Source: a virus. Taken from it: 64,000 nucleotides of DNA. The stretch covers positions 1 through 64,000 of IMG/VR virus record IMGVR_UViG_3300032214_000986, one strand, 5' to 3'. Under the pieces are notes generated by a model. It was not told the DNA's origin. It made no database searches and was given only the letters and a program-made list of their open reading frames with translations. Below, in pieces: positions 6,794-61,767 of the stretch (within the stretch, counting starts at the first letter, position 1; every line of letters begins with the position of its first letter). A program made the translations under genes and the position numbers.

Positions 6794-6795
6794 TT

Positions 6796-7251
6796 ATGGA
6801 CCAAAAAAAAGGAAAAATAGGATTCACCGCAGGTAATTTTGATTTACTCCATCCAGGATATATCTATACGTTCGAAACTGCTAAAGAAAATTGTGATTAT
6901 TTTATAGTATTCCTACAAAGAGACCCATCAGAGACAAGGTTTACTAAATATAAACCAGTCGTTCCTTTATATGAAAGATATAAAACATTGATGTCTATTA
7001 AATACGTAGATGAAGTTATTTGTTATGACGATGAAGAAGACTTACTTAGGTTAATAGAATTTTATAAACCTGATTTAAGAATTTTAGGTGATGATTATAT
7101 CGGTAAAAGATTTACAGGAGACCACCTCTCAATTGAAGTTCTTTACACGACAAGGTCACATAATTGGTCAACAACAAAAATAAAAGACCTAATAACAATA
7201 CAAACTTTAAAACAAAATCCAGAAATAATTAAAAAATTAAAAGATGATTAA
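6796..7251 (+). CDS. cytidylyltransferase-like protein with altered HxGH motif
   Basis: 151 residues, the size of glycerol-3-phosphate cytidylyltransferase (TagD) and RfaE-C-type nucleotidyltransferases. It begins with GFTAGNFDLLHPGYI; the family signature HxGH (residues 19-22) is HPGY here, so the second catalytic histidine is tyrosine. The end HNWSTTKIKDL corresponds to the STTxLR motif. A paralogue at 21871 has an intact HAGH. These enzymes activate phosphorylated sugars or polyols as CDP- or ADP-derivatives; with the altered motif activity is uncertain. The gene lies between a glycosyltransferase and an exonuclease, overlapping the latter by 8 bases. Confidence 0.8.
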   Translation: MDQKKGKIGFTAGNFDLLHPGYIYTFETAKENCDYFIVFLQRDPSETRFTKYKPVVPLYERYKTLMSIKYVDEVICYDDEEDLLRLIEFYKPDLRILGDDYIGKRFTGDHLSIEVLYTTRSHNWSTTKIKDLITIQTLKQNPEIIKKLKDD

Positions 7252-7972: not shown

Positions 7973-8571
7973 TGTTTGAGAGATTAAAAGAAATGAAAGA
8001 AGGTATGAAAATGGTTAAAGACCTTCAATCAAAATTCGGAAATTTAAATATGGAAAACCCAGAAGAAATGTTAAAATCTATGGGTATCACATCGGAAGAC
8101 TTAGAGTCTCATTTTACGGAGGCTATGATTAATAAAGTTCAGATGAAATACACTAACGATAGTGATAATAAAGAACCTGAATATGCTTATCAATCTGATT
8201 CTGGTTTCGATTTAAGATCGGTGGAAGACATTTGGGTTCAGGCAAATGATAGAAAATTAATACCAACAGGTTTAAGATTTGATATTCCTGATGGTTTTGA
8301 AATACAAGTAAGGTCTAAAAGTGGTTTAGCCCTAAATCAAGGTTTAATGGTTTTAAATTCGCCAGGTACTGTGGATAGTGGTTACCAAGGTGAGATTAAA
8401 GTAATAATGTTTAATACTACAAATCAAAAAATAAAAATAGAAAAGGGTCAAAAAATTGCACAAGCGGTTGTGTGTCCCGTAGTAAATGGAAGATGGATAG
8501 ATTTAATAAAAGTAGAACAACTTTCAGAAAAAGACAGAAACGATAAAGGATTTGGGAGTACAGGACTATGA
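7972..8571 (+). CDS. dut: dUTP diphosphatase with N-terminal extension
   Basis: 199 residues. All five trimeric dUTPase motifs are visible: DSGFDLRS (77-83), RSKSGLA (114-120), NSPGTVDSGYQGEI (129-142), EKGQKIAQ (157-164) and DKGFGSTG (191-198). It hydrolyses dUTP to dUMP, preventing uracil incorporation and feeding dTMP synthesis. About 55 residues precede the core, mostly helical (MFERLKEMKEGMKMVKDL), which ordinary 140-150-residue dUTPases lack. Start overlaps the exonuclease stop by one base (TAATG); stop overlaps the next ATG (ATGA). Confidence 0.93.
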   Translation: MFERLKEMKEGMKMVKDLQSKFGNLNMENPEEMLKSMGITSEDLESHFTEAMINKVQMKYTNDSDNKEPEYAYQSDSGFDLRSVEDIWVQANDRKLIPTGLRFDIPDGFEIQVRSKSGLALNQGLMVLNSPGTVDSGYQGEIKVIMFNTTNQKIKIEKGQKIAQAVVCPVVNGRWIDLIKVEQLSEKDRNDKGFGSTGL

Positions 8572-9662
8572 TAACTATTGGATTTTCCACAAGAAATATT
8601 GATAAGTCTTTTATTGAGATGTTAAAGAAAACCTCCGGTGTTAGTAATACGGAGGTTATTCCTATTGAAAATAATGGGGAATATTCTTTAACTGAGGCGT
8701 ATAATAAGATACTTTCACAATCTAAAAATGATATTGTCATATTATGCCACGATGACATTTACTTCGATAGTAAAAATTGGGGTCAAAAAATCTTAAAGCA
8801 TTTTAAAAGAAATAATGATTATGGAATTTTAGGTGTTGCTGGCTCAGTTAGTTTACCAAAATCGGCAAAATGGTGGGAAGATTTCTCTAAGATGAGAGGA
8901 ATTGTAAACCACGAACATGAAGGCAAAAAGTGGGAGTCCAAGTATTCACCAAGTTTGGGGAATCAAATTGATGATGTGGTCTTAGTTGATGGTCTTTTTA
9001 TAGGGTTAAATAAAAATAACATTAAAAATAATTTTAACCCAGATGTAAAAGGATTCCATTTTTACGATGTCGATTTTTCTTTTAGAAATTATATCGAGGG
9101 AGTAAATATAGGGGTGATTTATGATGTTAGAATAACACATAAATCAATAGGTCAAACAAATGACCAATGGGAAAAGAATAGAGAACTGTTTGCCGAAAAC
9201 AATAAAAATCTATTACCAATTAAAATTAAAAAAGAGGTAAATAAAAACTCAAACTTAAAAATTTTAGTTTTCGAGAATGATTTTTATAAATGTGAGAATT
9301 TACTATCAACCCTAAAAAAAATAAAATTCACCCCATCTTTTTGTGGTATGATATACGATGAAAAGATAATTAAAAAATTAAAACTTAATAATGTAAAAAG
9401 TTTTAATATTAATGAACCTTGTGGATATAAACTTGGTGATGGGAAGTGGGGATTTAATAGTCCTAATGGATTTGTTCCTGCAGAGGCAAATAAATTATAT
9501 AAAATATCTGAAGTTAATTTTGATATCGTCCATGTTATGGATGACAACATATTACCAATTGTTAAATCACTTTACCCTAACTCCGATATTTTTTTACAAA
9601 ATAAATCATATAACTCGGAAGACGAATTAATAAACGATTATAATAATTTTTTAAATGGTTAA
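8568..9662 (+). CDS. GT2-type glycosyltransferase with C-terminal extension
   Basis: 364 residues. GT-A fold: ITIGFSTRN first strand, IVILCHDDIYF with the metal-binding DD at 62-63, VDGLFIGLNK (about 145) and HFYDVDFSFRN (about 165). Residues 1-220 form the transferase; the following 140 residues contain a second alpha/beta unit (LKILVFENDFYKCENLLSTL, FDIVHVMDDNILPIV) of unknown role, possibly a reduced GT-B-like or nucleotide-binding module. Overlaps the next gene by 8 bases. Confidence 0.8.
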   Translation: MITIGFSTRNIDKSFIEMLKKTSGVSNTEVIPIENNGEYSLTEAYNKILSQSKNDIVILCHDDIYFDSKNWGQKILKHFKRNNDYGILGVAGSVSLPKSAKWWEDFSKMRGIVNHEHEGKKWESKYSPSLGNQIDDVVLVDGLFIGLNKNNIKNNFNPDVKGFHFYDVDFSFRNYIEGVNIGVIYDVRITHKSIGQTNDQWEKNRELFAENNKNLLPIKIKKEVNKNSNLKILVFENDFYKCENLLSTLKKIKFTPSFCGMIYDEKIIKKLKLNNVKSFNINEPCGYKLGDGKWGFNSPNGFVPAEANKLYKISEVNFDIVHVMDDNILPIVKSLYPNSDIFLQNKSYNSEDELINDYNNFLNG

Positions 9663-10446
9663 AATATTATCAGGATGGAGTAATAAAGGGGGGTCTACTT
9701 TCGCCTTTATAAATTTAACAAACGAATTAAACAAAAACGGAATAGATGCCACATTCTATGGTCCTCACAATTGGCATTTAGATAAATGTAAATCAGGATT
9801 ATTGGATAATACTTTTACACTCGATAAGGAAGATACAATAATTGTACATTTTTTAAATTTAGGTGTTAGACCTGACGTAAAAAGAGTTATCCTATCTTGC
9901 CATGAAAAGAATTTATTTGAGGTCGGAGATATGAAACCTTTTTGGGACGAAGCGGTCTTTATCAATAATAAACATAGAAACTATCATGAGAGATATACAG
10001 GACCATTTAACATTATTCCTAATTTAAGGGAACCATTAGTTAAAAATGAAAAGAGTGAAGATGTTATTGGCGTTGCAGGAGTTGTGGGTTCGATAGATGA
10101 AAATAAACAAACCCATATCTCAATTCAAAGAGCATTAAGTGATGGTAACAAAAAAGTCTATCTTTTTGGTAATGTTACAGACACCAATTACTATAACACA
10201 CAAGTCAAACCATTAATTGACGGAGATATTGTTGTTGAATATGGTTACGTATCCGACAAACAAAAAATGTACGATATGGTTAGTTCAGTTTATCTTTCGT
10301 CTAAAAGTGAAGTGGCATCCTTAGTTAAGGATGAATGTGAAAGTACCGGTACAAATTTTAAAGGTAATTATGCAACAAATAATGACTCTGAATTTTTAAC
10401 AAATGAAGAAATCATTAATAAATGGAAAAACATTTTAAAACTATGA
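9655..10446 (+). CDS. GT-B-like glycosyltransferase
   Basis: 263 residues. Begins VKILSGWSNKGGSTFAFINL, a glycine-rich first loop as in GT4-type enzymes that act on polysaccharides, followed by IIVHFLNLGVRPDVKRVILS. The second half has GVAGVVGSIDENKQTHI, KVYLFGNVTD and a 'SVYLSSKSEVASL' segment that occupies the place of the GT4 donor-site E-x-x-x-x-x-x-E region. Shorter than typical GT4 enzymes (about 350-400), so it is a minimal or divergent member. Stop overlaps the next start in ATGA. Confidence 0.6.
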   Translation: MVKILSGWSNKGGSTFAFINLTNELNKNGIDATFYGPHNWHLDKCKSGLLDNTFTLDKEDTIIVHFLNLGVRPDVKRVILSCHEKNLFEVGDMKPFWDEAVFINNKHRNYHERYTGPFNIIPNLREPLVKNEKSEDVIGVAGVVGSIDENKQTHISIQRALSDGNKKVYLFGNVTDTNYYNTQVKPLIDGDIVVEYGYVSDKQKMYDMVSSVYLSSKSEVASLVKDECESTGTNFKGNYATNNDSEFLTNEEIINKWKNILKL

Positions 10447-11156
10447 TAATCGTCACTACATTATATAATGCGGAAAATTATGTTGAAAGATGTATTGGTT
10501 CATTAATGGGTCAAACATATAAAGATTTCACATGTTACATCACAGATGATTTGTCGACAGACAGAAGTGTTGATTTGGTTAAAAAAATGATATTAGGTGA
10601 CAATAGATTTATTTTAATTGAGAATCAAATTAAAATGTACCAACCCGGAAATTACGACCAGGTCATACGTAATAACCCAAATATTGGGGATAGCGAGATT
10701 ATCGTTGAGGTTGATGGTGATGATTGGTTACCTGATTCAAACACCCTTAAAAGAATACATAATACGTATGAGGATGAGAATGTTTGGATAGCGAACGGTA
10801 GTTTTAAATACTCTACAGGGGCCATGGGATTTTCTTCTAAACAAACAAATTTTGAAAATTTAAGGAACTCCAGATTTACGGCATCCCATATTAGGACTTG
10901 GAGGGCGTTTTTATGGAGAAAAATAAAAGAGGAAGATTTAAAGGATGAAAATGGAACGTATTGGAAAGTAACGGGAGATTTATCGTTTATGTTCCCAATG
11001 TTAGAAATGGCCGGTGAAAAAAGATACAAATTTATGGAAGATGTGAACTATGTTTATAACGAATTAAACCCAATCAATGACCATAAAGTGGATTTAACAT
11101 TAGTTAATGTTGTTGCCGACAAAATTAGAAAAATGAAACCGTACGAGATATTATGA
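10443..11156 (+). CDS. GT2 family glycosyltransferase
   Basis: 237 residues from the ATG at 10443, chosen because it makes the ATGA overlap seen throughout this operon and starts right at the first strand (MIIVTTLYN); an upstream in-frame ATG at 10422 would add only seven residues. Typical GT2 features: ENYVERCIGSLMGQTYKDFT, ITDDLSTD (35-41) and the DxD-like EVDGDDW (89-95). Catalyses transfer from a nucleotide sugar with inversion; substrate not predictable. Confidence 0.87.
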   Translation: MIIVTTLYNAENYVERCIGSLMGQTYKDFTCYITDDLSTDRSVDLVKKMILGDNRFILIENQIKMYQPGNYDQVIRNNPNIGDSEIIVEVDGDDWLPDSNTLKRIHNTYEDENVWIANGSFKYSTGAMGFSSKQTNFENLRNSRFTASHIRTWRAFLWRKIKEEDLKDENGTYWKVTGDLSFMFPMLEMAGEKRYKFMEDVNYVYNELNPINDHKVDLTLVNVVADKIRKMKPYEIL

Positions 11157-11932
11157 TAAGTTGTTTTTTACAGGGAGGATTAGGTAACCAATTATTTCAA
11201 ATATCAGCAACAGTATCACTATCATTAAAGAATAATATTACGTATGGTATTAATATGGATTTATGTCATACCCCAAACCAAGGGTTTACTGCGAACAAAT
11301 ACAATGAAACATTATTTAAAAACATAAATAAAATAGGTAACTACCCTTTTAAATTTATATATGACGAACCTAAATTTAGTTTCACCGAAATCCCTTTCAA
11401 AGACGAAATGATAATTAGAGGTTATTTTCAAAGTGAAAAATATTTTTTAGAAAACAAAAAAGAAATAATAGATTTATTCCACATACCTGAAGAATCAAAA
11501 ACAAAAGTTTTAGATTTTTTTAAACAAAAAAAAGTTTCAGGGACAACGACATGTGTACATGTAAGAAGAGGTGATTATTTAAAATTTGACGATTTTCATT
11601 CAGTATGTAATGAAAATTATTATAACCAAGCAATAGATTTAATCGGAGACTCAACATTTATATTTATTTCGGATGATATGGAATGGGTTAATAAAACCTT
11701 TAATTCTGAAAATTTTATAATGTCAGAATTTAATAATGAGATTGACGATTTTACGCTAATGACTATGTGTGATAATGTGATAACATCAAATAGTTCGTTT
11801 AGTTGGTGGGGTTCTTACCTAAATAAAAATAATAATAAAAAGGTGATAACACCAAACAGATGGTTTGGTCCTTCAGGTCATAAAGATATTGAAGATGTAT
11901 ATCCTAAAGATTGGATCAGACTTGATTTTTAA
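11153..11932 (+). CDS. GT11 alpha-1,2-fucosyltransferase-like
   Basis: 259 residues. GT11 signatures: N-terminal LQGGLGNQLFQ (7-17), GYFQSEKYF (90-98), the donor-binding HVRRGDY (136-142), FIFISDDMEW, and SNSSFSWWGSYL (about 215) followed by VITPNRWFG. Length is slightly under the usual 280-300. The family transfers L-fucose from GDP-fucose; the phage encodes a complete route from GDP-mannose to GDP-fucose (gmd and fcl at 19994-21878), which strengthens the assignment. Acceptor sugar unknown. Confidence 0.88.
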   Translation: MISCFLQGGLGNQLFQISATVSLSLKNNITYGINMDLCHTPNQGFTANKYNETLFKNINKIGNYPFKFIYDEPKFSFTEIPFKDEMIIRGYFQSEKYFLENKKEIIDLFHIPEESKTKVLDFFKQKKVSGTTTCVHVRRGDYLKFDDFHSVCNENYYNQAIDLIGDSTFIFISDDMEWVNKTFNSENFIMSEFNNEIDDFTLMTMCDNVITSNSSFSWWGSYLNKNNNKKVITPNRWFGPSGHKDIEDVYPKDWIRLDF

Positions 11933-11967
11933 TTAACCAATAACTATTTTTTTCTAAAAAAGATATT

Positions 11968-13269
11968 ATGAAAGAAATAGAAGAAATATTTTCAGACTTA
12001 ACTAATTACCTAAAAGAAAAAAAACCAAAATACCTTTACAATAAATCATTTGTTCCTGGTAAAAGTCAGGTTTTATATTCAGGACCTTATTGGGATGAAG
12101 AAGAGATAATGGCAGCAATCAAAACATTTATCACAGGTAAGTGGGTAGTTGCGGGTGAAAACGTACATAAGTTTGAAAGTGAGTTTTCTAAACTATTCGG
12201 AGTTAAATATGCACATATGGTTAACTCAGGTAGTTCCGCCAATTTAGTATTAATTGCCGCTTTAAAAAAGTTTTTTGGGTGGAATGATGGTGATGAAGTT
12301 ATAGTTTCCCCTGTTGGTTTCCCGACAACTATTTCAGTTTTAGTTCAAAATAATTTAAAACCTGTATTCATTGATATCGAATATGATACATTAAATTTTG
12401 ATGTCACAAAAATAGAAGAGAAAATAACACCTAAAACTAAAGCAATTTTTGTTTCTCCTGTATTAGGTAACGCCCCCGATATGGATTATTTAAAAAATCT
12501 TTGCGATAAATACAATCTAAAATTAGTTGGTGATAGTTGTGACTCTATTGGTTCTAAATGGGACGGAAAACATCTAAGCTCTTATTATGTTGCATGGTCT
12601 ACATCATTCTATCCCGCACACCACATATCAACAGGTGAAGGTGGTATGGTTTGTACTGATATTGCAGAATTAAAAAAACTATTTGTGAGTTTTTCATGGT
12701 GGGGTAGAGATTGTCATTGCGTTGGTTCAGCAAATCTACTTTCATGTGGGACTTGTGGTAACAGATTCGATAAATGGTTGGAGTCTTATGATGGAATTAT
12801 AGACCATAAATACGTCTTTACTAATATGGGATATAACCTTAAACCTATGGATTTACAAGGTTCGATTGGGTTAGTTCAAATTAAAAGATTCGAGGAAATA
12901 GATTTAAATAGAAAAAACAGTAAAAAAAATATTGAGTCAATCTTACTAAAACACGTAGAAGGTTTAAAAGGTGTTGGTTCATTAAGTAAGTCCGACCCGT
13001 GTTGGTTTGGTACACCTTTCATATGTGAATCAAAAACGTTAAAAGATAAATTAGTTTCGTTTTTAGAAGAAAACAAAATACAAACTAGAAATTATTTTGC
13101 TGGAAATATATTGTTACATCCGGCTTATTCACATTTGGATGAGGTAGAATTATACCCTAACTCAAACCAAGTATTAGATAAAGTTTTCTTTTTGGGGGCA
13201 TCTCCACATTACACTGATGAGGTTTTTAATTATATTAATTCCGTGTTTGAAAATAAATGGAAAAATTAA
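11968..13269 (+). CDS. RfbH/E1-type 4-keto-6-deoxyhexose 3-dehydrase (PLP/PMP, [2Fe-2S])
   Basis: 433 residues, the length of RfbH. It is a DegT/DnrJ-fold protein in which the Schiff-base lysine is replaced: SFYPAHHISTGEGG has His 218/219 where aminotransferases have Lys, exactly as in CDP-6-deoxy-hexulose-3-dehydrase (E1/RfbH) and in ColD. It also has an E1-like cysteine set: C191, C249, C251 and C260 (C-X57-C-X1-C-X8-C; the E1 pattern has X7), with C263 as a further candidate. Family members remove the C3 hydroxyl on the way to 3,6-dideoxysugars. An electron-supplying E3 reductase was not seen in the window. Whether the substrate is CDP- or GDP-linked is open; gmd nearby makes a GDP-linked 4-keto-6-deoxy sugar. 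Confidence 0.87.
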   Translation: MKEIEEIFSDLTNYLKEKKPKYLYNKSFVPGKSQVLYSGPYWDEEEIMAAIKTFITGKWVVAGENVHKFESEFSKLFGVKYAHMVNSGSSANLVLIAALKKFFGWNDGDEVIVSPVGFPTTISVLVQNNLKPVFIDIEYDTLNFDVTKIEEKITPKTKAIFVSPVLGNAPDMDYLKNLCDKYNLKLVGDSCDSIGSKWDGKHLSSYYVAWSTSFYPAHHISTGEGGMVCTDIAELKKLFVSFSWWGRDCHCVGSANLLSCGTCGNRFDKWLESYDGIIDHKYVFTNMGYNLKPMDLQGSIGLVQIKRFEEIDLNRKNSKKNIESILLKHVEGLKGVGSLSKSDPCWFGTPFICESKTLKDKLVSFLEENKIQTRNYFAGNILLHPAYSHLDEVELYPNSNQVLDKVFFLGASPHYTDEVFNYINSVFENKWKN

Positions 13270-13278
13270 TCGGAAAAA

Positions 13279-14646
13279 ATGAAAACGTTAATATTAGGTG
13301 ACGGATTATTAGGTTCGGAAATACATAATCAAACTAAGTGGGACTTTATTTCCAGAAAAAAAGATGGTATTGATATCACAGATTTTGATTCTTGGTCAGA
13401 TAAGATGAATCAATATGATATCATTATCAATTGTATAGCAAATACAAATACATATTCCACATTAAAAAAGGAACATTGGGACATAAATTATAAATTTATA
13501 TTGGATCTTATTAACTATTCTAACGAAAAAGGAAAAAAATTAGTACATATATCTACAGATTATATTTATACAGGGTCAATTGAAAATGCATCTGAAAACG
13601 ATGTTCCTGTACATTGTAATAATTGGTATGGGTACACAAAACTTTTGGGTGATGGGTTAATGCAGTTAATGTCCAAAAATTATTTATTATGTAGATGTAC
13701 ACATAAACCAAACCCGTTTCCTTACGAATCGGCATGGATTGACCAAATAGGTAATTTTGATTATGTCGATAAGATATCTTCAATAATTATTAAATTAATA
13801 AATGAAGATAGGTTTGGGGTTTATAATGTAGGTACCGAAACTAAAAATATGTACGAATTGGCTAAACAAACAAAAGAAGTTACCCCAATAAATTCCCCAA
13901 GACATGTGCCAAAAAACACATCTATGTCATTGGATAAACTTAAAAGGCCATTTTTTTCTATAACAATCCCGACATATGGGTATAATGGGAAAGGGTCGGA
14001 ATTTTTAGAACATAGTTTAAAAATTATAAGTAACCAAACATTTAAAGACTATGAGGTTATAATATCTGACCATAGTATTGACGATACGATATTAAATGTC
14101 GTAAAATCTTGGGAATCGGTTATCGATATAAAGTATTTAAAAAATGAAAATGGTAGGGGTATCATATCTCCGAACATTAATAACGCAATGAAACACAGTA
14201 ACGGTGTTTGGATTAAAGTTTTATTTCAAGATGATTTTTTATATGATAATCAATCACTGGAAAACCAATATAAATTCATAATTAAAAATACTAGTATGAA
14301 ATGGTTTATGACTAGATTTTTTCATAGTAATGATGGTAAAACATATTATAGATTATATCATCCGGTGTGGAATGACCATGTATGGGCAGGTAATAATACT
14401 ATGGGATGCCCAAGTGGATTAACCTTATTGAATGATGATTTAATATATTTTGACGAAGGATTAAATTGGTTAATGGATTGCGACTACTACCAAAGATTAT
14501 TTATAAAATATGGTGAACCTAAAATTTTGGATGGGATAACCACAGTTAACAGAACGTGGGGATCAAGACTAACCGACACAATACCTCAGAGTTTAAAAGA
14601 TAAAGAATTTAATATATTAAAATTAAAATATGATAGAACTACCTAA
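13279..14646 (+). CDS. fusion: RmlD-like sugar reductase + GT2 glycosyltransferase
   Basis: 455 residues. Residues 1-222 are a short-chain (extended) NAD(P)-dependent reductase like dTDP-4-dehydrorhamnose reductase: LILGDGLLGSE at the N-terminus, ISTDYIYTG (91-99), YxxxK catalytic pair Y117/K121, and a C-terminal MSLDKLKR. Residues 224-455 are a GT2 transferase: FFSITIPTYGYNGKG, QTFKDYEVIISDHSIDDT, VLFQDDFLYD and LMDCDYYQRLF. Joining sugar reduction to sugar transfer in one chain suggests that the reduced nucleotide sugar is handed directly to the transferase. Directly follows the 3-dehydrase gene, whose product would need a 4-keto reductase. Confidence 0.85.
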   Translation: MKTLILGDGLLGSEIHNQTKWDFISRKKDGIDITDFDSWSDKMNQYDIIINCIANTNTYSTLKKEHWDINYKFILDLINYSNEKGKKLVHISTDYIYTGSIENASENDVPVHCNNWYGYTKLLGDGLMQLMSKNYLLCRCTHKPNPFPYESAWIDQIGNFDYVDKISSIIIKLINEDRFGVYNVGTETKNMYELAKQTKEVTPINSPRHVPKNTSMSLDKLKRPFFSITIPTYGYNGKGSEFLEHSLKIISNQTFKDYEVIISDHSIDDTILNVVKSWESVIDIKYLKNENGRGIISPNINNAMKHSNGVWIKVLFQDDFLYDNQSLENQYKFIIKNTSMKWFMTRFFHSNDGKTYYRLYHPVWNDHVWAGNNTMGCPSGLTLLNDDLIYFDEGLNWLMDCDYYQRLFIKYGEPKILDGITTVNRTWGSRLTDTIPQSLKDKEFNILKLKYDRTT

Positions 14647-15289
14647 TATAACGTTAATCGCTTTAACAAGTGTTAGAATCCCTGAAACAATTAAAGCTTT
14701 AGAGTATAGTTGTAGAGGGGTAAAATTTGGTAAGGTAAAAATAGCATCAGATATTAAACCTGATAATTTACCAGATTTTATCACACACGAATTTACTGAA
14801 AAAAGTTCAAATATTGATGAGTGGAATTATAATATAATTTATAATTTATCAAAACACATTGATACCGAATTTGCATTATTAATTCACGATAATGGATTTG
14901 TTGTGAATCCTGAATCATGGAGAGATGAATTTTTAAATTATGACTATATTGGTGCACCTTGGCCATTACCAGTTGATGATTTTTCATATAGAGACATTAA
15001 CGGAAATATAATTAGACAAGGTAATAGTGTTTCATTACGAAGTAAAAGATTATTAGATGTCCCAATCAAATTAAATTTGGAATGGAAACCGTTTCATGGT
15101 TTTACTAATGAAGATGGGTTTATATGTGTAAACTACAGACACAAATATCTTGAAGAAGGATGTAAATTTGCTGAGATTGATGTTGCAAAATATTTCTCAC
15201 ATGAAAGTATGATACCTGAAATACAGGGAATTAAACCTTTTGTCTTCCATAATTATTTGGGAACAAATAACCAATACCCAAGATTTTAA
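14630..15289 (+). CDS. DUF5672-like glycan-associated protein
   Basis: 219 residues. Contains LALTSVR-type start (LIALTSVR), FALLIHDNGFVVNPESW (about 83-99), YDYIGAPWP (105-113), GNSVSLRSKRLLD (about 130) and EDGFICVNYRHKYLE, the usual pattern of the DUF5672 family, which is found beside or fused to glycosyltransferases and is thought to be GT-A-like. IHDNG occupies the place of the DxD motif. Overlaps the fusion gene by 17 bases. Confidence 0.75.
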   Translation: MIELPNITLIALTSVRIPETIKALEYSCRGVKFGKVKIASDIKPDNLPDFITHEFTEKSSNIDEWNYNIIYNLSKHIDTEFALLIHDNGFVVNPESWRDEFLNYDYIGAPWPLPVDDFSYRDINGNIIRQGNSVSLRSKRLLDVPIKLNLEWKPFHGFTNEDGFICVNYRHKYLEEGCKFAEIDVAKYFSHESMIPEIQGIKPFVFHNYLGTNNQYPRF

Positions 15290-47042: not shown

Positions 47043-49085
47043 ATGAACGATACTTTAGACAATAACGAAAAATCAAAAAACAAAAATCAAGACGGGTCAT
47101 CAAGAACCCCCGTATTAGATAATTTTTCAAGGGATTTAATTAAACAAGCACAAGAAGGTAAACTTGATCCTGTTATTGGTCGCGATGACGAAATTAATAG
47201 AATTGCTCAAATCCTATCAAGACGTAAAAAAAATAATCCTATCATTTTAGGTGAACCTGGTTGTGGTAAAACGGCAATAGTTGAGGGTTTAGCTAAAAAA
47301 ATATTTGAGGGTGATTGTCCACAAAATTTATCAAGTAAACGAATAGTGTCTTTAGATATGACATCAATTGTTGCAGGAACAAAATACCGTGGTCAATTCG
47401 AGGAAAGAATGAAAGTTATTATTGAAGAACTTTATGCTAACCCTGATATTATTATCTTTATTGATGAAATTCACACAATGATTGGTGCTGGTAACGCTTC
47501 GGGCTCAATGGACGCATCCAACATATTTAAACCCGCTCTTTCTCGTGGTGAGTTACAATGTATTGGAGCGACAACATTAGAAGAATATAGAAAAAATATT
47601 GAGAAGGATGGGGCGTTAGAAAGACGTTTCCAAAAGGTAATGGTTGACCCAGCAACTAAAGAAGAAACTTTAGAAATTTTACAACAATCAAAAGACAGAT
47701 ATGAAAATCACCACAAAGTATCTTACAGTGATGATATCTTAAAACTATGTGTTGATTTAGCAGACCGTTACATCACTGACCGTGAATTTCCAGATAAAGC
47801 ATTCGATATCATCGATGAGGTTGGTGCTCGATCACAAGTGGAAATCAAACTTCCTGAAATTATTGAAGAATTAAAACTACAAGTTCAAAAAATAAAAGAA
47901 GAGAAGTTAGATGTTATTAATAAACAAAAGTACGAGGAGGCTGCAAATCTTAGAGATAAAGAACGAAAAATATTAGCCGACTTAGCAAGAGAAAAAGAGG
48001 ATTTTGAAAAAAACAGAGACCAAAACAAACGAGTGGTTACTGAAGATGTTGTATATGATGTTGTTTCATTAATGACTAAAATTCCAATCAATAAAATTAC
48101 AACTGACGAAACACAACAACTTATTTCTTTAAGAGAAACATTATCAAGTAAAGTAATTGGTCAAGATGATGCGGTAGCAAAGATTTCAAGAGCTATCCAA
48201 AGAAATAAAGTGGGATTAAGTGACCCTAAAAAACCAATCTTTAGTGGTTTATTAATTGGTAATTCAGGTGTTGGTAAAACTGAATTGGCTAAACAATTGG
48301 CTAAACATATGTTCGGTAGTGAAGATGCACTTATCAGATTAGATATGAGTGAATTTTCAGATAAGATTGCAACGTCAAAATTAACAGGCACATCTCCAGG
48401 TTATGTTGGGTATGAGGATGGGTCACCATTCTTAAATAAAATTAAAAACAAACCTTATTCTGTTATTCTTTTAGATGAAATAGAAAAAGCACATCCTGAA
48501 ATCTTTAACGTATTTTTACAAATGTTAGATGAAGGGTTTTTAACCGACGGACATGGAAGAAAAATCAACTTTAAAAATTGTATAATCTTAATGACATCTA
48601 ACGTTGGTACTCGTGTCGTACAGGAATTTGGTACAGGTGTCGGGTTTTCAACAAACACAAAAACTGAAAGAGCTGACGATGAGGTTAAATCAATTTTAGA
48701 AAAAGAATTATTTAAGAAGTTCGCACCTGAGTTTATTAATCGTTTTGATGACATCGTTTATTTTAAAGATTTAAATAAAGATGATTTATTGAAGATTGTT
48801 GAATTAGAATTAAATAAGTTTTATGAGAGAATCGGACAACTTGAATTTTTAGTACAGGTGGAAGATAGTCTAAAAAACCATTTGATTGAGGTTGGTACTG
48901 ATACAAGGTTTGGAGCACGTATACTAAAACGTACTGTACAAAAATGGGTAGATGATGCAATTACAGAAAAGATTTTAACGGATAATCCAGAAAAAGGATC
49001 AACATTTGTTTTAACGTATAATGAAAAGGATAAAAAAACTGACGTTAAAATAAAAAAACCAACAAAAAGAAAAACAAAACAGTAA
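47043..49085 (+). CDS. ClpC/ClpA-type AAA+ unfoldase without N-domain
   Basis: 680 residues. Two AAA+ modules: D1 with Walker A GEPGCGKT (70-77), Walker [10 protein letters not shown]; a UVR-like linker [16 protein letters not shown] (coiled-coil middle, as in ClpC); D2 with [25 protein letters not shown], and sensor LMTSNVGTR. After it, [10 protein letters not shown] occupies the ClpP-binding loop position; VGF is close to the LGF/IGF tripeptides of ClpC and ClpA, so docking to host ClpP is plausible. The usual 150-residue N-domain that binds adaptors is missing, leaving a 40-residue polar tail. Probably unfolds proteins for degradation or remodelling. Neighbours: a metallopeptidase and the tmRNA. 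Confidence 0.9.
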
Positions 49086-49135: not shown

Positions 49136-50182
49136 ATGAATATAGATAAATTTAAAGAACTTCTTTCAGTACCGTCAAAAACATATCAAGAAGAAGATAT
49201 GGTTGGGTTCATTTGTGATGAATTAGAGTCCATTGAGGGGGTTACCTTTTATCGTGATGATATGATGAATATCTACGCAACTAAAGGTGTGTTAGAAGAA
49301 GGTGAATTTTATCCTATGTTCGTTGCTCATACCGATACCGTACACACAAAGATTGATAAAATCATTGTTAAAGAGGAAAAACTTAAACGACCAAATACGT
49401 TTGGTAAAACGTTTGACGATACATTAGTAGATGTATTGAAGGCATATGACGAAGAAGGTAATCCTACAGGTATCGGTGGTGATGATAAATGTGGAATTTT
49501 CATTTGTTTAGAATTACTTAAACAATTAGATAAAGTAAAAGTTGGTTTATTCGTATCTGAAGAAACCGGTTGCCACGGGTCTTCAAAATGTGACGTTTCA
49601 TTTTTAGAAGATGTTGGTTATATCACGCAATACGATGCTCCTGGTAATCACTTAATTACCGAGATTTGCTCGGGGGTTCGTTTGTTTGAACGTGATAGTG
49701 AATTCTTTGAAAAAAGTATTTCAGTTATTGAAAATGCTTTTGGAAATGAAATGTTGGTTCAATCTCACCCTTATACTGACGTTTCACAATTAAAGAAAAA
49801 GGTTGACGTTTCTTGTATTAACATGTCTTGTGGTTACTACAACATGCACACAAAAGAAGAATTTATTTCTATTGATGATGTAGAACGTGCTATCGAGGCT
49901 GGTAAAAATATGGTATTCATCTTGGGATTAAATAAATACCAATACGAATACAAACCTATCGTTTACACAAAAAACACAATTTTTAACACTCTTTTTGATG
50001 ATGAAGTCGAAGAAGACGAAGATGATGTGTTTTTTCACCAGTTGGAGACTCTTGACGTTGAGGAAAATAAAGACGGAATAACAATTATGGATCCGTTTGA
50101 CAATAATGTCATGTTTATAAATGACGACGATTTAGTTTACTTATATGAAATAATTAAAGAAAGATTACTTAAAAAATATTAA
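49136..50182 (+). CDS. M20/peptidase-T-like zinc metallopeptidase
   Basis: 348 residues. Co-catalytic zinc ligands are recognisable: AHTDTVH (H65, D67), GIGGDDKCG (D116/D117 bridging), SEETGCHGS (E142 general base, E143), QYDAPG (D167) and NMHTKEEF (H238). Size and motif order fit M20-family exopeptidases such as peptidase T or M42-like aminopeptidases, and SCGYYNMHT is typical of this group. It would trim small peptides, possibly those released by Clp proteolysis. A roughly 50-residue acidic insertion precedes the C-terminus (DDEVEEDEDDVFF). Confidence 0.85.
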   Translation: MNIDKFKELLSVPSKTYQEEDMVGFICDELESIEGVTFYRDDMMNIYATKGVLEEGEFYPMFVAHTDTVHTKIDKIIVKEEKLKRPNTFGKTFDDTLVDVLKAYDEEGNPTGIGGDDKCGIFICLELLKQLDKVKVGLFVSEETGCHGSSKCDVSFLEDVGYITQYDAPGNHLITEICSGVRLFERDSEFFEKSISVIENAFGNEMLVQSHPYTDVSQLKKKVDVSCINMSCGYYNMHTKEEFISIDDVERAIEAGKNMVFILGLNKYQYEYKPIVYTKNTIFNTLFDDEVEEDEDDVFFHQLETLDVEENKDGITIMDPFDNNVMFINDDDLVYLYEIIKERLLKKY

Positions 50183-51315
50183 TTTTTTCTATAATCCATT
50201 GGGTTAAATAAACTTTCGTTGTAAACCATATTTAGGATATCGTCAGTATAAGACTCTCCGTATTTGGTAATATATGTTTTTCTGTTAGTAAGTGCGTATT
50301 TCACTTTTAGGGTTTCTTTATCAACACTTTTAACCATTAGTGTAACATCACTATTTGGTATTTTAACATACTGGTCAAATCCGATTGTTGAGTTAATTTT
50401 ATCAATTATCGAAAAATATTTTTTCATAGTCTCATCATTAGCATCCTCAAGTACTCTGTCTCTAAAGTTTTCTAAATCGTTATCGGCGTTGTGGATAAAC
50501 GAAGCATCAAACTCTTCATTATTCCAAATATTATATTGTATTTCATAATATTCAGGTAAGTGGGATATGGGTTCTTTTTCAATTGCCATAAATAATAAAT
50601 CAAGAAGATTGTCTTCTTCAGTACCAAAACGAGGATATAACATAATCGCATCTCCCCAATGTAATTTATATTTCCAAAAACAATACTTTTCAGAATACCT
50701 TTCAATACCAACAGGGGTTAAACAATTACAATAAGTATCCTCAATATATTTTCCAACTTCACCATCAACCGCAGCAACACTAGCATCTACCCAAGTACCC
50801 GTTAAATCATCAGATATTCTATTATCCACCTGTTCTAAAAATGAGCACACATTTTCAGGGTTATTTATTTTTAATTTTTTATCATTACCCACATCAAAAG
50901 ATTTTAAAAGACCTGGTTGAATAATTTTTGCAACATCGTAAATAATTTGTAAATGGTCTGAGTTTAAAGCTTCAACAATAATACCCTCTCTCCAGTCATC
51001 ATAAGATCTATCATCAAAATCCCAAGTCCAATTTCCACGGTACATAGAATCGTAATAACCCGCTTCATAATATCCATCAGTATTTTCTTCAGAATAATAA
51101 TCAGGAAAAAAGAATCTTAAATACTCCTCTAACCCATCAAAAGTAAACATTAAACCGTCTTGTTCTACAGTGATTATATTGCTAAAATCGTTACCTTCAG
51201 AATTATAAAACTCAACTTCACTAGGGCTTATTTTTCTTTTATTAAGTGCAAGAATTTTTTGAAAGTCGTTTAACTCTTCTTCTTCTTGTTCAAAAATCCT
51301 TAAAATTTTTTTCAT
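50179..51315 (-). CDS. hypothetical protein
   Basis: 378 residues, start placed at the ATG at 51315 (MKKILRIFEQEEEELNDFQ). The reading frame continues upstream to 51492, but that part is antisense to the tmRNA, and a TATTTAT motif lies 5 bases before 51315. Acidic protein with many aromatic residues (DGYYEAGYYDSMYRGNWTWD). No family recognised. The N-terminus contains I-F-E (7-9), a possible prohead protease site. Convergent with the peptidase gene; their stop codons overlap by 4 bases. Confidence 0.6.
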   Translation of the reverse strand: MKKILRIFEQEEEELNDFQKILALNKRKISPSEVEFYNSEGNDFSNIITVEQDGLMFTFDGLEEYLRFFFPDYYSEENTDGYYEAGYYDSMYRGNWTWDFDDRSYDDWREGIIVEALNSDHLQIIYDVAKIIQPGLLKSFDVGNDKKLKINNPENVCSFLEQVDNRISDDLTGTWVDASVAAVDGEVGKYIEDTYCNCLTPVGIERYSEKYCFWKYKLHWGDAIMLYPRFGTEEDNLLDLLFMAIEKEPISHLPEYYEIQYNIWNNEEFDASFIHNADNDLENFRDRVLEDANDETMKKYFSIIDKINSTIGFDQYVKIPNSDVTLMVKSVDKETLKVKYALTNRKTYITKYGESYTDDILNMVYNESLFNPMDYRKN

Positions 51316-51330: not shown

Positions 51331-51361
51331 TTGTTTAATATAAAGTTTTATACTATCTTTA
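51331..51361 (+). promoter_or_regulatory. tmRNA promoter
   Basis: TTG (51331-51333), 20 bases, TATCTTTA (51354-51361); also readable as TTGTTT-N17-TATCTT. The mature 5' end lies 20 bases downstream. Confidence 0.55.
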
Positions 51362-51381: not shown

Positions 51382-51779
51382 GGGGGTGTTTTTGGATTTG
51401 ACAGGTATTGGCTGAGGAATAAGGGCACGTGGGGACTGAACTAATCTCCTTAAAAACTGGTTTATTTTTTTAGACGGCAACGTTTTGAACAACCTTGAGA
51501 CTTTGGGACTTATCTCAACTCAAGAAGTTACTGTAGCTTAATTTAAGTACGGCAACGGGGGGTCGGTGGACACATAACCTAGCAACAGAAGTCTTTAAGG
51601 TGTGGTTTCTACCCAAAAAGAAACAAAAACGGGTGTGGTTCCCCGTAAGAACTACCACCGTCGCTGAGCGGTGTGAAAACTCAGATATTTCGGAAGGTAT
51701 GACAAACCTTGACCTAAACGTGTAGTCCTTATCTGACAGGATAGGCTGGACCGGGGTTCGAGTCCCCGCACCTCCACCA
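51382..51779 (+). ncRNA. ssrA: tmRNA (transfer-messenger RNA)
   Basis: 398 bases. The 5' end GGGGGTGTTTTTGGATTTGA pairs with the 3' CACCTCC-A-CCA to make a seven-bp acceptor stem with G3-U70, the alanine identity pair; CCA is encoded. The T-arm is CGGGG-TTCGAGT-CCCCG (about 51752-51768). TAGAC precedes the probable resume codon GGC at 51476; the frame then encodes GNVLNNLETLGLISTQEVTV plus a final Ala and a TAA stop at 51539-51541. At 21 residues the tag is longer than usual (about 8-15) and ends TVA, not ALAA. Rescues stalled ribosomes and tags their products for proteolysis. Followed at once by a terminator. Confidence 0.93.
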
Positions 51780-51782
51780 ATT

Positions 51783-51817
51783 TTAAACCTCATCTTCGGA
51801 TGGGGTTTTATTTTTTT
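51783..51817 (+). terminator. intrinsic terminator of tmRNA
   Basis: AAACCTCATC and GATGGGGTTT form a 10-bp stem closed by a TTCG tetraloop, followed by a T run. Confidence 0.88.
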
Positions 51818-51846
51818 AAAAAAAAACAAATATATTTTTAAAAACC

Positions 51847-57069: not shown

Positions 57070-59670
57070 ATGGAAAAACTGCTTTTTATTGCCCCTCACT
57101 TATCAACAGGGGGGTTACCTCAAGTTTTGGTTAATAAAATTGAGTTATTAAAAAATGATTACATTATTAAATGTGTAGAATGGGATTGGACAGGCGATGC
57201 ATTTGTTATTCAAAAAAACAGAGTTAAAGAACATATTGGTCCTGAGAACCTTATAACTTTAGGTGAAGATAAAACAAAACTTTTTGATATTATTTCAGAT
57301 TTTAATCCTGACTTAATTTGTTTGGAGGAGTTTTGTGAACACTTCATACCTGAAGAAATTAATAAAAAACTATTTTCAAAAGATAGGTCATATAAATTAT
57401 TTGAAACGACTCACGATTCAAGCATTCCCGTAACAAACAAAAGATGGTTCCCTGATAAGTTTATTTTTGTCAGCCCATTCAATGCGTTTAGATACTCTAT
57501 GTTTGACGTTCCTTATGATATTATCGAATACCCAATAGATGCGGTGACACCAAATAAAGAATGGGCACAAGAACAATTAATGCTTGACCCCAATTTTAAA
57601 CATGTAGTCATTGTTGGTTTATTCACCGAAAGAAAAAACCAAGCATATGCATTTGAAATGGCAAGAAGAGTAATTGGTCAAAATATATTATTTCATTTCA
57701 TTGGGAATCAAGCCGATAATTTCGCACATTACTGGTTACCATTAATGGGTAATAAACCAGGTAACTGTATTGTATGGGGTGAACGAAATGACGTGGACAC
57801 TTTTTTACAGGCATCTGACTTATTTTTATTCCCGTCAAAAGGAGACAGAAATAATAAAGAATTAAACCCGATAGCAATAAAGGAAGCTATCAAATATGAA
57901 TTACCGATGATGATGTTCAATTTGGATGTTTATTGTGGTAAGTACAATAATAACCAAAAAATTAAATTTATGAGTGGAGACATCACCCAAGACACAAACA
58001 CATTATTAGGTATGTTAGGTAAAAATGATATTTTATCATTGTTTAGTTTATCGTACGAATCGAATGAAAATAAAATTAATATTCATTATAACCACACAGG
58101 GTCTAATGATATTAATGTTGTTGTAAAATGTATGACATCAAACGCACCGATGTATTGGTTCAACTTAAATTTTACAGAACCTTTAACTTATTTCGTTATT
58201 CCGATACCGACTAGCGTTATGAAATTTGAAGGTATGAAAAACTTTAGAGGTTTTTCAGTTGAGTTTTATAGTAATGGTGATAACACGTATTTGGGTAAAA
58301 AGGAAGTAGTTGTTAATAACGTATACCCTAATATACCAAGATTTAATTTTAAACCGTTCGATTGTAACTATGTAAATTATCACGAATTCTTTATCGATAA
58401 ATGTTTTAGTGGTTTAGGGTTGGAAAATTTGGACACTGTTATTGATATTGGTGCTAACGTAGGATTGTTCGCAAAATACATGTACTCAATAAATACCAAA
58501 AAAGTTATTTTGGTTGAAGCTAACCCTTATTTAAGAGAAAGTATAGAAACATTATTAGACACAGATAATGAAAAATCGGTAATATACATGAATCCTATTT
58601 ATGGCGAAAAGACAACTATTCCATTTAGATTCTCAATGGAAAACACTACTATCGGGTCTAATTATTTTGGTACTGACCACGATAGTTATAGTCAATTAAC
58701 AAATGTAATTGATTGTGAAACAATCACATTAGATGAGATTTTAAAAGATAATAATTATGAACGAATCTCATTATTAAAATGTGATATTGAGGGTGGTGAG
58801 TATCCTTTCTTTGAGTCCGTTACCGATGAACAAATCCAACTTGTTGATAGATTCATGATTGAGTTTCATGGTAATGTTAATCATGAAATTGACCCAATAT
58901 TAGAAAAACTTGAAAGAAATGATTATGAATATGAAATTATTTTATTCGAGATGGGTAGGCAAATCCGTTCACACAAGGGTATCGAACACGGAGTTATTTT
59001 TGCAAAACCAAAAAGTAAAAGAGATAAAAAACCAGGGTCAATTAATGGGTCGGTTTATCAAGTAACTAAAGATTTTGAACAAGCGCTTTGTGATTATACC
59101 GGTGCACCTTACGCAGTCACCGTGGATAACCAAAGTAACGCATTGTTTTTGGCATTAATGTATGAGAAGATTAAAGGGAAAACAATTAGAATCCCATCTA
59201 GAACATATCCTTCAGTACCTTGTGAAATTATACACGCAGGAGGCAAAGTAGAGTTTGAAGATTTTGGAGGTACAACGTTAAAAGGAGCATACCAACTACA
59301 ACCAACCAAAGTTTGGGATAGTGCGTTAAGATTTACTTCAGATATGTACATTCATAATTCACATATGTGTTTATCATTTACCGGACCTTATAAACATTTA
59401 AAACTTGGTAAGGGTGGTGCTATTCTTACGGATGATTACGAAGCATACAAATGGTTTAAACGAGCAAGATATTCAGGTAGAAACGAATGTTCTTACCATG
59501 AGGATGAATTAGATATGTTGGGTTGGAATTTTTATATGTTACCGGAATTGGCGTCTCGTGGACTTCTACTTATGAACCAATTCTATAAAGTTGACGGATC
59601 CCCTAAACATAATGAGGATTTGGAATTACCTTATCCTGACCTATCCAAATTTGACGTATACAAAAAATAA
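57070..59670 (+). CDS. triple fusion: GT4 glycosyltransferase + FkbM methyltransferase + DegT-like domain
   Basis: 866 residues. Residues 1-300: GT-B (LLFIAPHLSTGGLPQVLVNK, HVVIVGLFTERKNQAYAFEM, FLFPSKGDRNNKELNPIAIK). Residues 300-430: beta-rich spacer. Residues 435-640: FkbM-type SAM methyltransferase (VIDIGANVGLFAKYMY, LVEANPYLRESIETLL, LLKCDIEGGEYPFF). Residues 650-866: DegT-fold piece (YTGAPYAVTVDNQSNALFLA, IRIPSRTYPSVPCEI, FTGPYKHLKLGKGGAILTDD with the Lys that could hold PLP), about 215 residues against the usual 370, so it may be incomplete. First gene of the second sugar cluster, divergent from the fibre genes. Confidence 0.85.
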   Translation: MEKLLFIAPHLSTGGLPQVLVNKIELLKNDYIIKCVEWDWTGDAFVIQKNRVKEHIGPENLITLGEDKTKLFDIISDFNPDLICLEEFCEHFIPEEINKKLFSKDRSYKLFETTHDSSIPVTNKRWFPDKFIFVSPFNAFRYSMFDVPYDIIEYPIDAVTPNKEWAQEQLMLDPNFKHVVIVGLFTERKNQAYAFEMARRVIGQNILFHFIGNQADNFAHYWLPLMGNKPGNCIVWGERNDVDTFLQASDLFLFPSKGDRNNKELNPIAIKEAIKYELPMMMFNLDVYCGKYNNNQKIKFMSGDITQDTNTLLGMLGKNDILSLFSLSYESNENKINIHYNHTGSNDINVVVKCMTSNAPMYWFNLNFTEPLTYFVIPIPTSVMKFEGMKNFRGFSVEFYSNGDNTYLGKKEVVVNNVYPNIPRFNFKPFDCNYVNYHEFFIDKCFSGLGLENLDTVIDIGANVGLFAKYMYSINTKKVILVEANPYLRESIETLLDTDNEKSVIYMNPIYGEKTTIPFRFSMENTTIGSNYFGTDHDSYSQLTNVIDCETITLDEILKDNNYERISLLKCDIEGGEYPFFESVTDEQIQLVDRFMIEFHGNVNHEIDPILEKLERNDYEYEIILFEMGRQIRSHKGIEHGVIFAKPKSKRDKKPGSINGSVYQVTKDFEQALCDYTGAPYAVTVDNQSNALFLALMYEKIKGKTIRIPSRTYPSVPCEIIHAGGKVEFEDFGGTTLKGAYQLQPTKVWDSALRFTSDMYIHNSHMCLSFTGPYKHLKLGKGGAILTDDYEAYKWFKRARYSGRNECSYHEDELDMLGWNFYMLPELASRGLLLMNQFYKVDGSPKHNEDLELPYPDLSKFDVYKK

Positions 59671-59671
59671 T

Positions 59672-60466
59672 ATGTATAATAACAAAAAAATTTCATTAGC
59701 CATAACATCATCTAAAAGATTTGAGTTACTACAAATGACTATTCGTGGTTTTGTCACATTTTGTAATGATTTAGATATTATCGATAATATTATATTTTTT
59801 GATGATTCATCGTCAAATATTGATAAAATTAATATGGAACGACTATTACGAGACAAGTTTCCAAATAAAAATATAATAGTAACTCATTTTTATAAAAATT
59901 CTTTTGAGGATGGATACAGACATTCAAGAATTTTAAATGAAATGAGAAAAAAATTAATTGAGACTGAAACTGATTACTTTTTTATGTTGGAGGATGATTA
60001 TCTCTTTGTTAATCATTTTTACATAAAAGAAGCTATAGACATATTAGAAAACAATGAAGAATATGGGTATGTGGGGTTTTCACAATCTTATAAAAATTTT
60101 CCACCTGAAATCCAACCTAAAATTATTGGTGACTTCTGGGAATGGTATTACGATACCGAAAAACCTATAAACGAACATCTATTTTTAGATGAGGTTTCTG
60201 CCACCCAAACAATGATTCCAAATATTTGGATGATGTATACAAATTGGCCTAGTTTCTCACTTAGACCCGGTATTAACCACACAGAAAGATTTTTAAGTAT
60301 CGGTGAATTTTCGACAGACTACGATACAAATGAAATGAGAACCGAGTTGGAGTTTGCAATAAGATGGTCAAAAAAATATAAAAGTCTTTGTCATAAAAAC
60401 TTTCATATAATAAATTTAGCGTGGGACTCAACTAAAAGTTCATACAATTTAAATAATAGTAATTAA
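59672..60466 (+). CDS. GT-A glycosyltransferase
   Basis: 264 residues from the ATG at 59672, which follows the previous stop by one base; an in-frame ATG at 59591 lies inside the previous gene. KISLAITSSKRFELLQMTIR, NIIFFDDSSSN and FMLEDDYLF (E107, D108, D109) are GT2/GT-A features. NEEYGYVGFSQSYKNFP follows. Substrate unknown. Confidence 0.78.
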   Translation: MYNNKKISLAITSSKRFELLQMTIRGFVTFCNDLDIIDNIIFFDDSSSNIDKINMERLLRDKFPNKNIIVTHFYKNSFEDGYRHSRILNEMRKKLIETETDYFFMLEDDYLFVNHFYIKEAIDILENNEEYGYVGFSQSYKNFPPEIQPKIIGDFWEWYYDTEKPINEHLFLDEVSATQTMIPNIWMMYTNWPSFSLRPGINHTERFLSIGEFSTDYDTNEMRTELEFAIRWSKKYKSLCHKNFHIINLAWDSTKSSYNLNNSN

Positions 60467-61767
60467 TGGATTTTAATAATTTATGGGAAAAATGTTTAAG
60501 ATATAATATTGAACAAAAACCCGAGGAGTTTAAACAATTTTTAGAGGTTTTAGGTAACCAAAAGAATAAAAAATATGCACTAGAGATTGGGTCAAATTAT
60601 GGTGGGACTTCATACGCATTATGTCATATATATGATTATGTAATATCTTTAGATATCAAACATCATGAAAATTTTGATAAGATAAAGGAGGAGTTCCCAA
60701 ACTACAACTATATAATTTCAGACTCAACATTAAATGATACTGTTAAAATTATTAAAAATTTAGGTATTGTGTTTGATTTTATATTCATTGATGGCGACCA
60801 CTCATATGACGGTGTTAAAAACGATTATGATAAGTATAAACAATTTTTATCCCACGATGGGTTTTTAGGTTTTCATGACATCATACCAAGTGAAGAAACA
60901 GAAAAACATAATATTTTTGTACATAAGTTCTTTAAAGAATTAAAAGAAACTTACAACGAAGTGTATGAATTCGTCGCAACAGAAAAAAACCCAATTTATA
61001 GAAAAGATAATTTATTTCATAAAATATTAGAAAATCAACCGTACGACATTTGGGGGGGTATCGGGTTAATAAAAAATAATAAGGTTTCTATTTTCTCACA
61101 CAACTACCTAGACAACGATTGGTATAATATACTTAACAACCAACTTTTTAAATTAAAAAATAGTGGCCTTTATAAAAGATCTGACAAAATTTATTTAGGG
61201 GTTTATTCCACCCAAAAAAATAATATTAAAATTTTTAAAGATATTATTTTAGGATTCGATGAGGATTTAAAAATTGAGGTCGTGGTTTTTGATAATAATT
61301 TGTCAGAATATGGGACGTTAACCCTTTTACAAAATTATTGTAAAATTAACCCGAATTCTACTGTTTTATATTACCATACTAAAGGGTCGTCTAGAGAAAA
61401 AAATTATTATATAGATTCTTGGAGAGAGTGTTTAGAATATTTTTGTATAGAGGAGTGGTTACGGCCGTTAAAAGACATATTAAATAAAGAGTGTGACGTG
61501 TGCGGGTCACTATACGTTGAGTCATTTAAATTTCTTGATTATCATTTACAAAATTATTTTTCTGGTAATTTTTGGTGGTCATCTTCTAATCATATTAACA
61601 CCTTAGAACAAATCACAAAATTACATCACAATAGTAATGGTGAAAGAATTAATTCAGAACTATGGGTAGGTACTAAACCGCATTATTGGAAAAGTTACTA
61701 TAACGAGAATGTTTCGTCGTGGTATGAACATTATTTTGACCCAAAAAAATATAAAATAAATATATGA
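60466..61767 (+). CDS. fusion: SAM methyltransferase + GT-like domain
   Basis: 433 residues. N-terminal Methyltransf_24/CmcI-like domain: YALEIGSNYGGTSYALCH (37-54), VISLDIKHHENFD, FDFIFIDGDHSYDGVKNDYD (103-122), GFLGFHDI. The C-terminal 210 residues start KIYLGVYSTQKNNIKIFKDI and include VLYYHTKGSSREKNYYIDSW, LYVESFKFLDYHLQNYFSGN and FWWSS, like the sugar-transferring part of rhamnan-synthesis/GT-A proteins. Sugar O-methylation coupled to transfer is plausible. Overlaps neighbours by 1 and 4 bases. Confidence 0.78.
   Translation: MDFNNLWEKCLRYNIEQKPEEFKQFLEVLGNQKNKKYALEIGSNYGGTSYALCHIYDYVISLDIKHHENFDKIKEEFPNYNYIISDSTLNDTVKIIKNLGIVFDFIFIDGDHSYDGVKNDYDKYKQFLSHDGFLGFHDIIPSEETEKHNIFVHKFFKELKETYNEVYEFVATEKNPIYRKDNLFHKILENQPYDIWGGIGLIKNNKVSIFSHNYLDNDWYNILNNQLFKLKNSGLYKRSDKIYLGVYSTQKNNIKIFKDIILGFDEDLKIEVVVFDNNLSEYGTLTLLQNYCKINPNSTVLYYHTKGSSREKNYYIDSWRECLEYFCIEEWLRPLKDILNKECDVCGSLYVESFKFLDYHLQNYFSGNFWWSSSNHINTLEQITKLHHNSNGERINSELWVGTKPHYWKSYYNENVSSWYEHYFDPKKYKINI

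Follow-up and report, generated by a model that had tools for sequence, protein, structure and literature searches.

A phage-encoded tmRNA with a conserved 21-residue non-host tag and a neighbouring gene for a ClpC-type unfoldase

Introduction

Why would a phage carry its own tmRNA with a tag unlike those of its hosts, and to which protease would the tagged products go? tmRNA is brought to stalled ribosomes by SmpB, AlaRS and EF-Tu. The question is raised by a locus in a 120,084-bp viral record of IMG/VR, of which the first 64 kb were analysed (the window).

Phage tmRNAs occur in about 2% of phage genomes (402/18,146; PMC9004378). They are known in mycobacteriophages and phage G (PMC4131195), and huge phages carry them as well, some together with SmpB (PMC7162821). 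Their role is unsettled, and proposals range from keeping host translation going to marking host proteins for recycling (PMC9004378). The class of gene is thus already known; what is new at this locus is a conserved foreign tag and the neighbourhood of the gene. No description of the family or of its clpC-peptidase-tmRNA neighbourhood was found in the literature, subscription papers being mostly outside reach.

Results and Discussion

Identification and architecture of the tmRNA

An earlier note, made from the letters of the window alone, had called a tmRNA gene and proposed a covariance-model search as a check. In this search (cmscan) the Rfam model RF00023 matched exactly positions 51382-51779 of the plus strand and scored 100.4 bits, the cut-off being 47 (E 4.9e-38); this was the only Rfam tmRNA match in the whole viral record. 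The elements of the gene are the following.

51382..51779, plus strand: tmRNA (ssrA) gene of 398 nt, RF00023 model positions 1-374 complete
51382..51388, plus strand: 5' strand of acceptor stem P1, paired with 51769-51775, with a G3.U70 wobble
51431..51464, plus strand: PK1 pseudoknot that precedes the resume codon, made of stem 1 (51431-51435/51445-51449) and stem 2 (51437-51442/51459-51464)
51472, plus strand: A at position -4 relative to the resume codon, corresponding to A86 of E. coli; A in 129/129 homologues
51476..51541, plus strand: tag frame of 21 codons, GNVLNNLETLGLISTQEVTVA + TAA; resume codon GGC 51476-51478, stop codon TAA 51539-51541
51752..51779, plus strand: T-arm CGGGG-TTCGAGT-CCCCG, 3' strand of P1, discriminator A and encoded CCA

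Direct reading of the sequence gave P1 as GGGGGTG/CACCTCC. The G3-U70 pair, the encoded CCA and the T-arm that the earlier note had listed were all confirmed by this reading and by the RF00023 match. The same elements were maintained in homologues of the gene. After manual registration of the acceptor stem, G3.U70 was constant in 33/33 readable representatives and pairs 4-7 of P1 covaried, and a count over the alignment found G3.U70 in 36/36 sequences. In these 36 sequences PK1 showed compensatory changes in helices 4-6 with 87-92% of the cells paired, and the T-stem covaried with 93% paired cells. For P1, P2, PK1 and the T-arm together, 87% of the cells were paired and 25 of 33 pairs had double changes, in 36 representatives that share kinship and whose counts do not represent independent events. 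The observed structure score was matched by none of 500 shuffles. The structure count took in these four elements only; Rfam aligned the PK2-PK4 region at low confidence. By its RF00023 score, the alanine-type stem and T-arm, PK1 with the frame-setting A, and the conserved tag frame, the gene is a tmRNA. It is complete and probably functional.

ARAGORN, the tool used for the tmRNAs of huge phages (PMC7162821), made no tmRNA call at 51382-51779. It called 18 of 133 homologues, with the right tag in 5, as against 38 of 39 host controls, and its silence on the window is therefore ascribed to a limit of the tool. With only 18/133 of this family found, phage tmRNAs are probably under-counted, and surveys relying on ARAGORN will miss the family.

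Reading frame of the tag

The resume codon GGC at 51476 and the stop codon TAA at 51539, as placed in the earlier note, were correct: sequence reading, the A at position -4 and the conservation of frame 0 all agree. The E. coli counterpart of this A, A86, is essential and determines the frame, which opens 4 nt further downstream (PMC2481249). The peptide joined to the nascent chain has 22 residues, the tRNA-borne alanine followed by GNVLNNLETLGLISTQEVTVA.

A scan with the tag pattern gave matches in at least 119 viral stretches and none among 84,980 bacterial and archaeal genomes. Because such a scan preselects conserved residues, conservation was re-measured on loci that were fetched via the neighbouring ClpC gene and whose tmRNAs were located with 5' and 3' profiles excluding the tag, the profiles themselves having been built mostly from tag-found members. 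The frame statistics refer to 34 distinct tags, all from these ClpC-found loci. The pN/pS ratio was 0.64 in frame 0; the two other frames gave 0.82 and 1.26. The entropy at codon positions 1, 2 and 3 was 0.88, 0.58 and 1.17. Tag residues G1, G11 and L12 were invariant, position 7 was L or M, position 18 was mostly V, and position 21 was A in 32/34. By these comparisons frame 0 is conserved as protein and under coding constraint.

It is very improbable that the frame is incidental, with the region conserved as RNA or the true resume codon located elsewhere and followed by a short tag. Such a reading could appeal to the poor Rfam alignment of the tag region and to the other short frames that ARAGORN offers in some homologues, for example ATEQVTVA. 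However, frame 0 was open in all 34 tags while stops broke the other frames in 32 and 33 of them, third codon positions varied most, and the A at -4 was invariant. The short internal frames were rejected on the basis of the frame-0 conservation. Neither a relocated resume codon with a short ALAA-type tag nor a host ssrA sharing the phage tag was encountered.

A family of tmRNAs in uncultured phages

The search that made no use of the tag yielded 133 distinct homologues, all on contigs of uncultured phages. A tag of 21-22 residues was encoded by 132 of them, with the core GNx[LFI]x[KN][LM]xx[LIV]GL...VxxA. The tag was read automatically in 129 cases; three homologues start with GGA and not GGC or GGT and were read normally. 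The last one (L069, 16307-16519) is a tmRNA of 213 nt that lacks the end of the tag and the middle of the RNA owing to an internal deletion; it is either an artefact of assembly or a real reduced form. Five further homologues, found by Rfam only, also encode 21-22 residues. Deep tag variants in the family include GNTFAKLAALGLTREAAVVAA, GETFAKLSAIGLIREESVVAA, GNILNKMALVGLVRQDELVNVA and GNTFAKLAALGLTKEEAVVTI, and a distinct 21-residue tag was kept across a lineage in which ClpC identity falls to about 60%. The tmRNA is carried by family records of 270-305 kb, and family members are therefore jumbo phages. A DNA similarity search with the tmRNA among annotated phages gave no match, so no named phage record in that annotated set carries a tmRNA of the family. 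On one phage contig (L408) a GOLLD RNA (14426-14833, minus strand, 306 bits) lies a few kb from the family tmRNA.

The tags of 38 tmRNAs from Bacteroidota genomes were 9-10 residues long and all ended in [LM]AA. Set against these, the phage tag is about twice the usual length and its end is not ALAA, as the earlier note had stated, and its distinctness from host-type tags is further borne out by the empty scan of cellular genomes. In the family tags the usual Ala-Ala end of ssrA tags is mostly replaced by VA, TA, VS or TI; 4 of the 34 unbiased tags have a penultimate alanine, and a few tags end in AA. A canonical degron of the ClpX type is short and ends in [LM]AA, whereas the family tags have 21-22 residues with mostly a non-alanine residue before the last alanine.

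The phage origin of the gene, also claimed in the earlier note, was supported by T4-type head genes on the same contig, encoding terminase, portal, prohead protease and major head protein. Since tmRNA genes serve as phage attachment sites (PMC3029335), the gene could in principle be a host ssrA or an integration-site remnant that was acquired by the phage or joined to it by misassembly. This is exceedingly improbable: the gene is complete and has phage head genes within a few kb, it recurs in the records of 270-305 kb and in more than 100 contigs, and its tag is shared with no sampled host. A remnant or misassembly was rejected on the grounds of the same position in many phage contigs, the complete gene and the non-host tag. 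The window also contains, at 5585-14646 and 57070-61767, glycosyltransferase, aminotransferase, nucleotide-sugar epimerase and methyltransferase genes, which form a sugar-modification set.

Transcription signals and host

The tmRNA gene is flanked by two transcription signals.

51331..51361, plus strand: Bacteroidota-type promoter, TTG at 51331-51333, 20 nt, then TATCTTTA at 51354-51361
51785..51818, plus strand: intrinsic terminator, hairpin with UUCG loop and U-run, -12.8 kcal/mol, z -4.5

The promoter was evaluated with the Bacteroidota consensus TTG-N~19-TAnnTTTG, to which the window sequence is a near match in which A replaces the last G of TAnnTTTG. This element was present within 50 nt upstream in 116/133 family tmRNAs, against a background of 3% per 50 nt. 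With its own promoter and terminator, the gene looks like an independent transcription unit. The cellular proteins nearest to the phage ClpC were from Bacteroidota, with 53-55% identity. Both promoter type and nearest cellular ClpC indicate Bacteroidota as the host phylum; they do not establish a host among the Flavobacteriia, the group with which the earlier note had proposed to compare the gene.

Neighbouring genes

Three genes precede the tmRNA.

47043..49085, plus strand: ClpC-type double-AAA+ unfoldase of 680 aa without N-domain, homologous to S. aureus ClpC
49136..50182, plus strand: putative PepT/M42-like metallo-aminopeptidase (Pfam M42, PHROG 4191, metal motifs)
50179..51315, minus strand: orphan protein P0003, divergent from the tmRNA, its family present in 72/72 loci

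Residues 7-670 of the phage ClpC matched residues 144-807 of S. aureus ClpC (phmmer, E 1e-203). Because the homology starts only at residue 144, the N-domain is considered absent. Walker A motifs were found at 70 and 406, Walker B motifs at 137 and 474, and pore loops at 113 (TKYRG) and about 453 (GYVG). The sequence GVGF at 532 aligns with AGF of S. aureus ClpC and is the predicted ClpP-docking loop; a [VMIL]GF loop was present in 96/96 long ClpC homologues. In some relatives an intein-like element, which starts with CVLGDTW and ends with VVSHN before C, interrupts clpC at the P-loop, GEPGC^GKT (L077, 8094-11764; L078, L084 and L097, 10001-12475; L079, 10001-12486). The N part ends about 25 residues into the intein and the C part begins at a separate start, an atypically split intein layout; in L077 the halves are 1.7 kb apart.

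The peptidase scored 24.3 bits with Pfam M42 (cut-off 23.2), stayed below the M20 cut-off, and matched PHROG 4191 (peptidase) with E 2.5e-37. Its metal-binding motifs HTD (HxD), GGDDK (DD), SEE (EE) and SH (H) are present. The AlphaFold2 model of P0003 had a mean pLDDT of 90.6, and no PDB or viral-model match was obtained at E<=0.001. The P0003 family evolves fast and is kept beside the tmRNA in all 72 loci; the protein may be an adaptor or regulator.

Linkage was scored in the 124 loci whose upstream flank reached 6.5 kb or more, 33 found by the tag alone and 91 by ClpC. In 124/124 loci clpC was on the same strand, 1.7-5.6 kb upstream of the tmRNA, and the peptidase gene was present in all, inverted in about half of them with its position kept. 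A ClpC homologue was also found in 11/11 tmRNA-bearing records tested. In L093, which has a distant tag and a shorter flank and is not among the 124, the tmRNA is on the opposite strand. Some ClpC loci, such as L411, L428 and L431, had no tmRNA within their flank. Genes for a 257-aa and an 82-aa protein upstream of clpC were also kept in 69/72 loci, and genes downstream of the tmRNA were not conserved. Because the linkage sits in this syntenic block, the neighbourhood alone is weak evidence for a functional connection. Among distant huge phages with a related Clp, W01 and W02 had no clear tmRNA, and W03 had one about 360 kb off with another tag. Tag identity drops as ClpC identity drops, but this was not counted as proof of co-evolution since both genes are co-inherited and tag types were exchanged inside a ClpC clade (L021, L077). 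These swaps argue against tight co-adaptation of tag and ClpC.

Possible fate of tagged proteins

SmpB, Lon and ClpS were not found in the 11 phage records, and ClpP was encoded in one of them (G007:C1:7534-8061, minus strand, 190.9 bits). Without a phage SmpB, the SmpB, AlaRS, EF-Tu and ribosomes of the host must serve the phage tmRNA. During infection the phage tmRNA would divert ribosome rescue to a phage-specific tag. Ribosomes stalled on broken mRNAs would receive A-GNVLNNLETLGLISTQEVTVA in place of the host tag ending in [LM]AA, and phage-tagged products would carry C-terminal peptides containing NVLNNLETLGLISTQEVTVA. Quite possibly, these products go to phage ClpC together with host ClpP and not to host ClpX. 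We infer this destination because the Ala-Ala end read by ClpX is missing and the interior of the tag is conserved. The few tags that end in AA and the huge phages W01, W02 and W03 speak against it. The N-domain-less ClpC would take up the products while docked on host ClpP via its VGF loop, and the PepT-like peptidase would cut the resulting peptides down to amino acids that feed phage synthesis. Taken as a whole, such a private tag-and-destroy route, in which an adaptor-independent phage ClpC on host ClpP reads the 21-residue tag, the phage peptidase recycles the products and host ClpX is bypassed, is a tentative possibility. The suggestion of the earlier note that the tag could feed another protease gains circumstantial support from the neighbouring unfoldase gene.

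The missing Ala-Ala end can also be read differently. For E. coli ClpX the terminal Ala-Ala is the main determinant (PMC7652416), and its replacement in most family tags would be expected if the phage tmRNA serves only to release ribosomes that stall while mRNA is being broken down, with a tag selected so that host ClpXP does not destroy the products or does not become clogged by them. Growth of the hybrid phage lambda-immP22 in E. coli needs ribosome release and not destruction of the polypeptide (PMC2481249). The tags of two unrelated large phages likewise lack LAA: the tmRNA of Bacillus phage G (L440, 412060-412371) encodes AKLNITNNELQVA, and that of the huge phage LR756508 (L353, 92434-92880) encodes a 36-residue tag ending in ERKPAAV. 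Non-host tags may therefore be common in phage tmRNAs. Protease avoidance, however, needs only a short polar end and not 21 conserved residues with an invariant G1, G11 and L12 and L or M at position 7, and we regard rescue without dedicated proteolysis as somewhat unlikely.

Alternatively, ordinary host proteases (ClpXP, host ClpCP, FtsH or tail-specific protease) may degrade the tagged products, the odd sequence reflecting an unusual host or drift. A hydrophobic C-terminus ending in alanine could be weakly read, a few tags do retain the penultimate alanine, and substitutions of the last residues raise the KM of E. coli ClpXP with Vmax barely altered (PMC7652416). Against this stand the short tags ending in [LM]AA of all 38 Bacteroidota tmRNAs, the coding constraint on the tag interior and the lack of the tag pattern in any of the 84,980 genomes. 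Degradation by ordinary host proteases is thus considered unlikely.

A lineage that has retained a distinct tag close to a ClpP-docking unfoldase allows the role of phage tmRNAs to be tested directly, with no more than a short peptide, a single unfoldase and the ClpP of the host. Should the tag-ClpC pair work, it would provide a new orthogonal degron and unfoldase.

Comparison with known systems

The phage gene shares with the one-piece tmRNAs of Bacteroidota (RF00023) the alanine-type tRNA-like domain with G3.U70, PK1, the A at -4, an internal frame and the encoded CCA, and its resume region (GGC AAC) resembles host tags such as GNYDYALAA. It differs in being phage-borne, in its diverged central region and in a VTVA-like tag of 21-22 residues instead of 9-10 residues ending in [LM]AA. 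The phage ClpC resembles ClpC of S. aureus and B. subtilis in its two AAA+ domains, Walker and pore-loop motifs and ClpP loop, but lacks the adaptor-binding N-domain, and several relatives have the intein-like P-loop interruption. Like the known tmRNAs of mycobacteriophages (Bxz1 group), Bacillus phage G, Melnitz (a phage of OM43) and huge phages, the present tmRNA is a complete ssrA in a large phage. Those phages have other hosts and unrelated tags (Bxz1 and Catera were outside the tag comparison), and the Melnitz tmRNA is a two-piece RNA; the present family is distinguished by the deep conservation of its tag and by the constant presence of clpC and the peptidase gene nearby. A precedent for a non-standard tag with a dedicated AAA+ protease is found in Mesoplasma florum, where an unusual ssrA tag is read by the organism's own Lon (mf-Lon) and poorly by Lon of other bacteria (PMC8138137). 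That system is cellular and Lon-based with an unrelated tag, whereas the partner of the phage tag would be a ClpC-type unfoldase acting with host ClpP.
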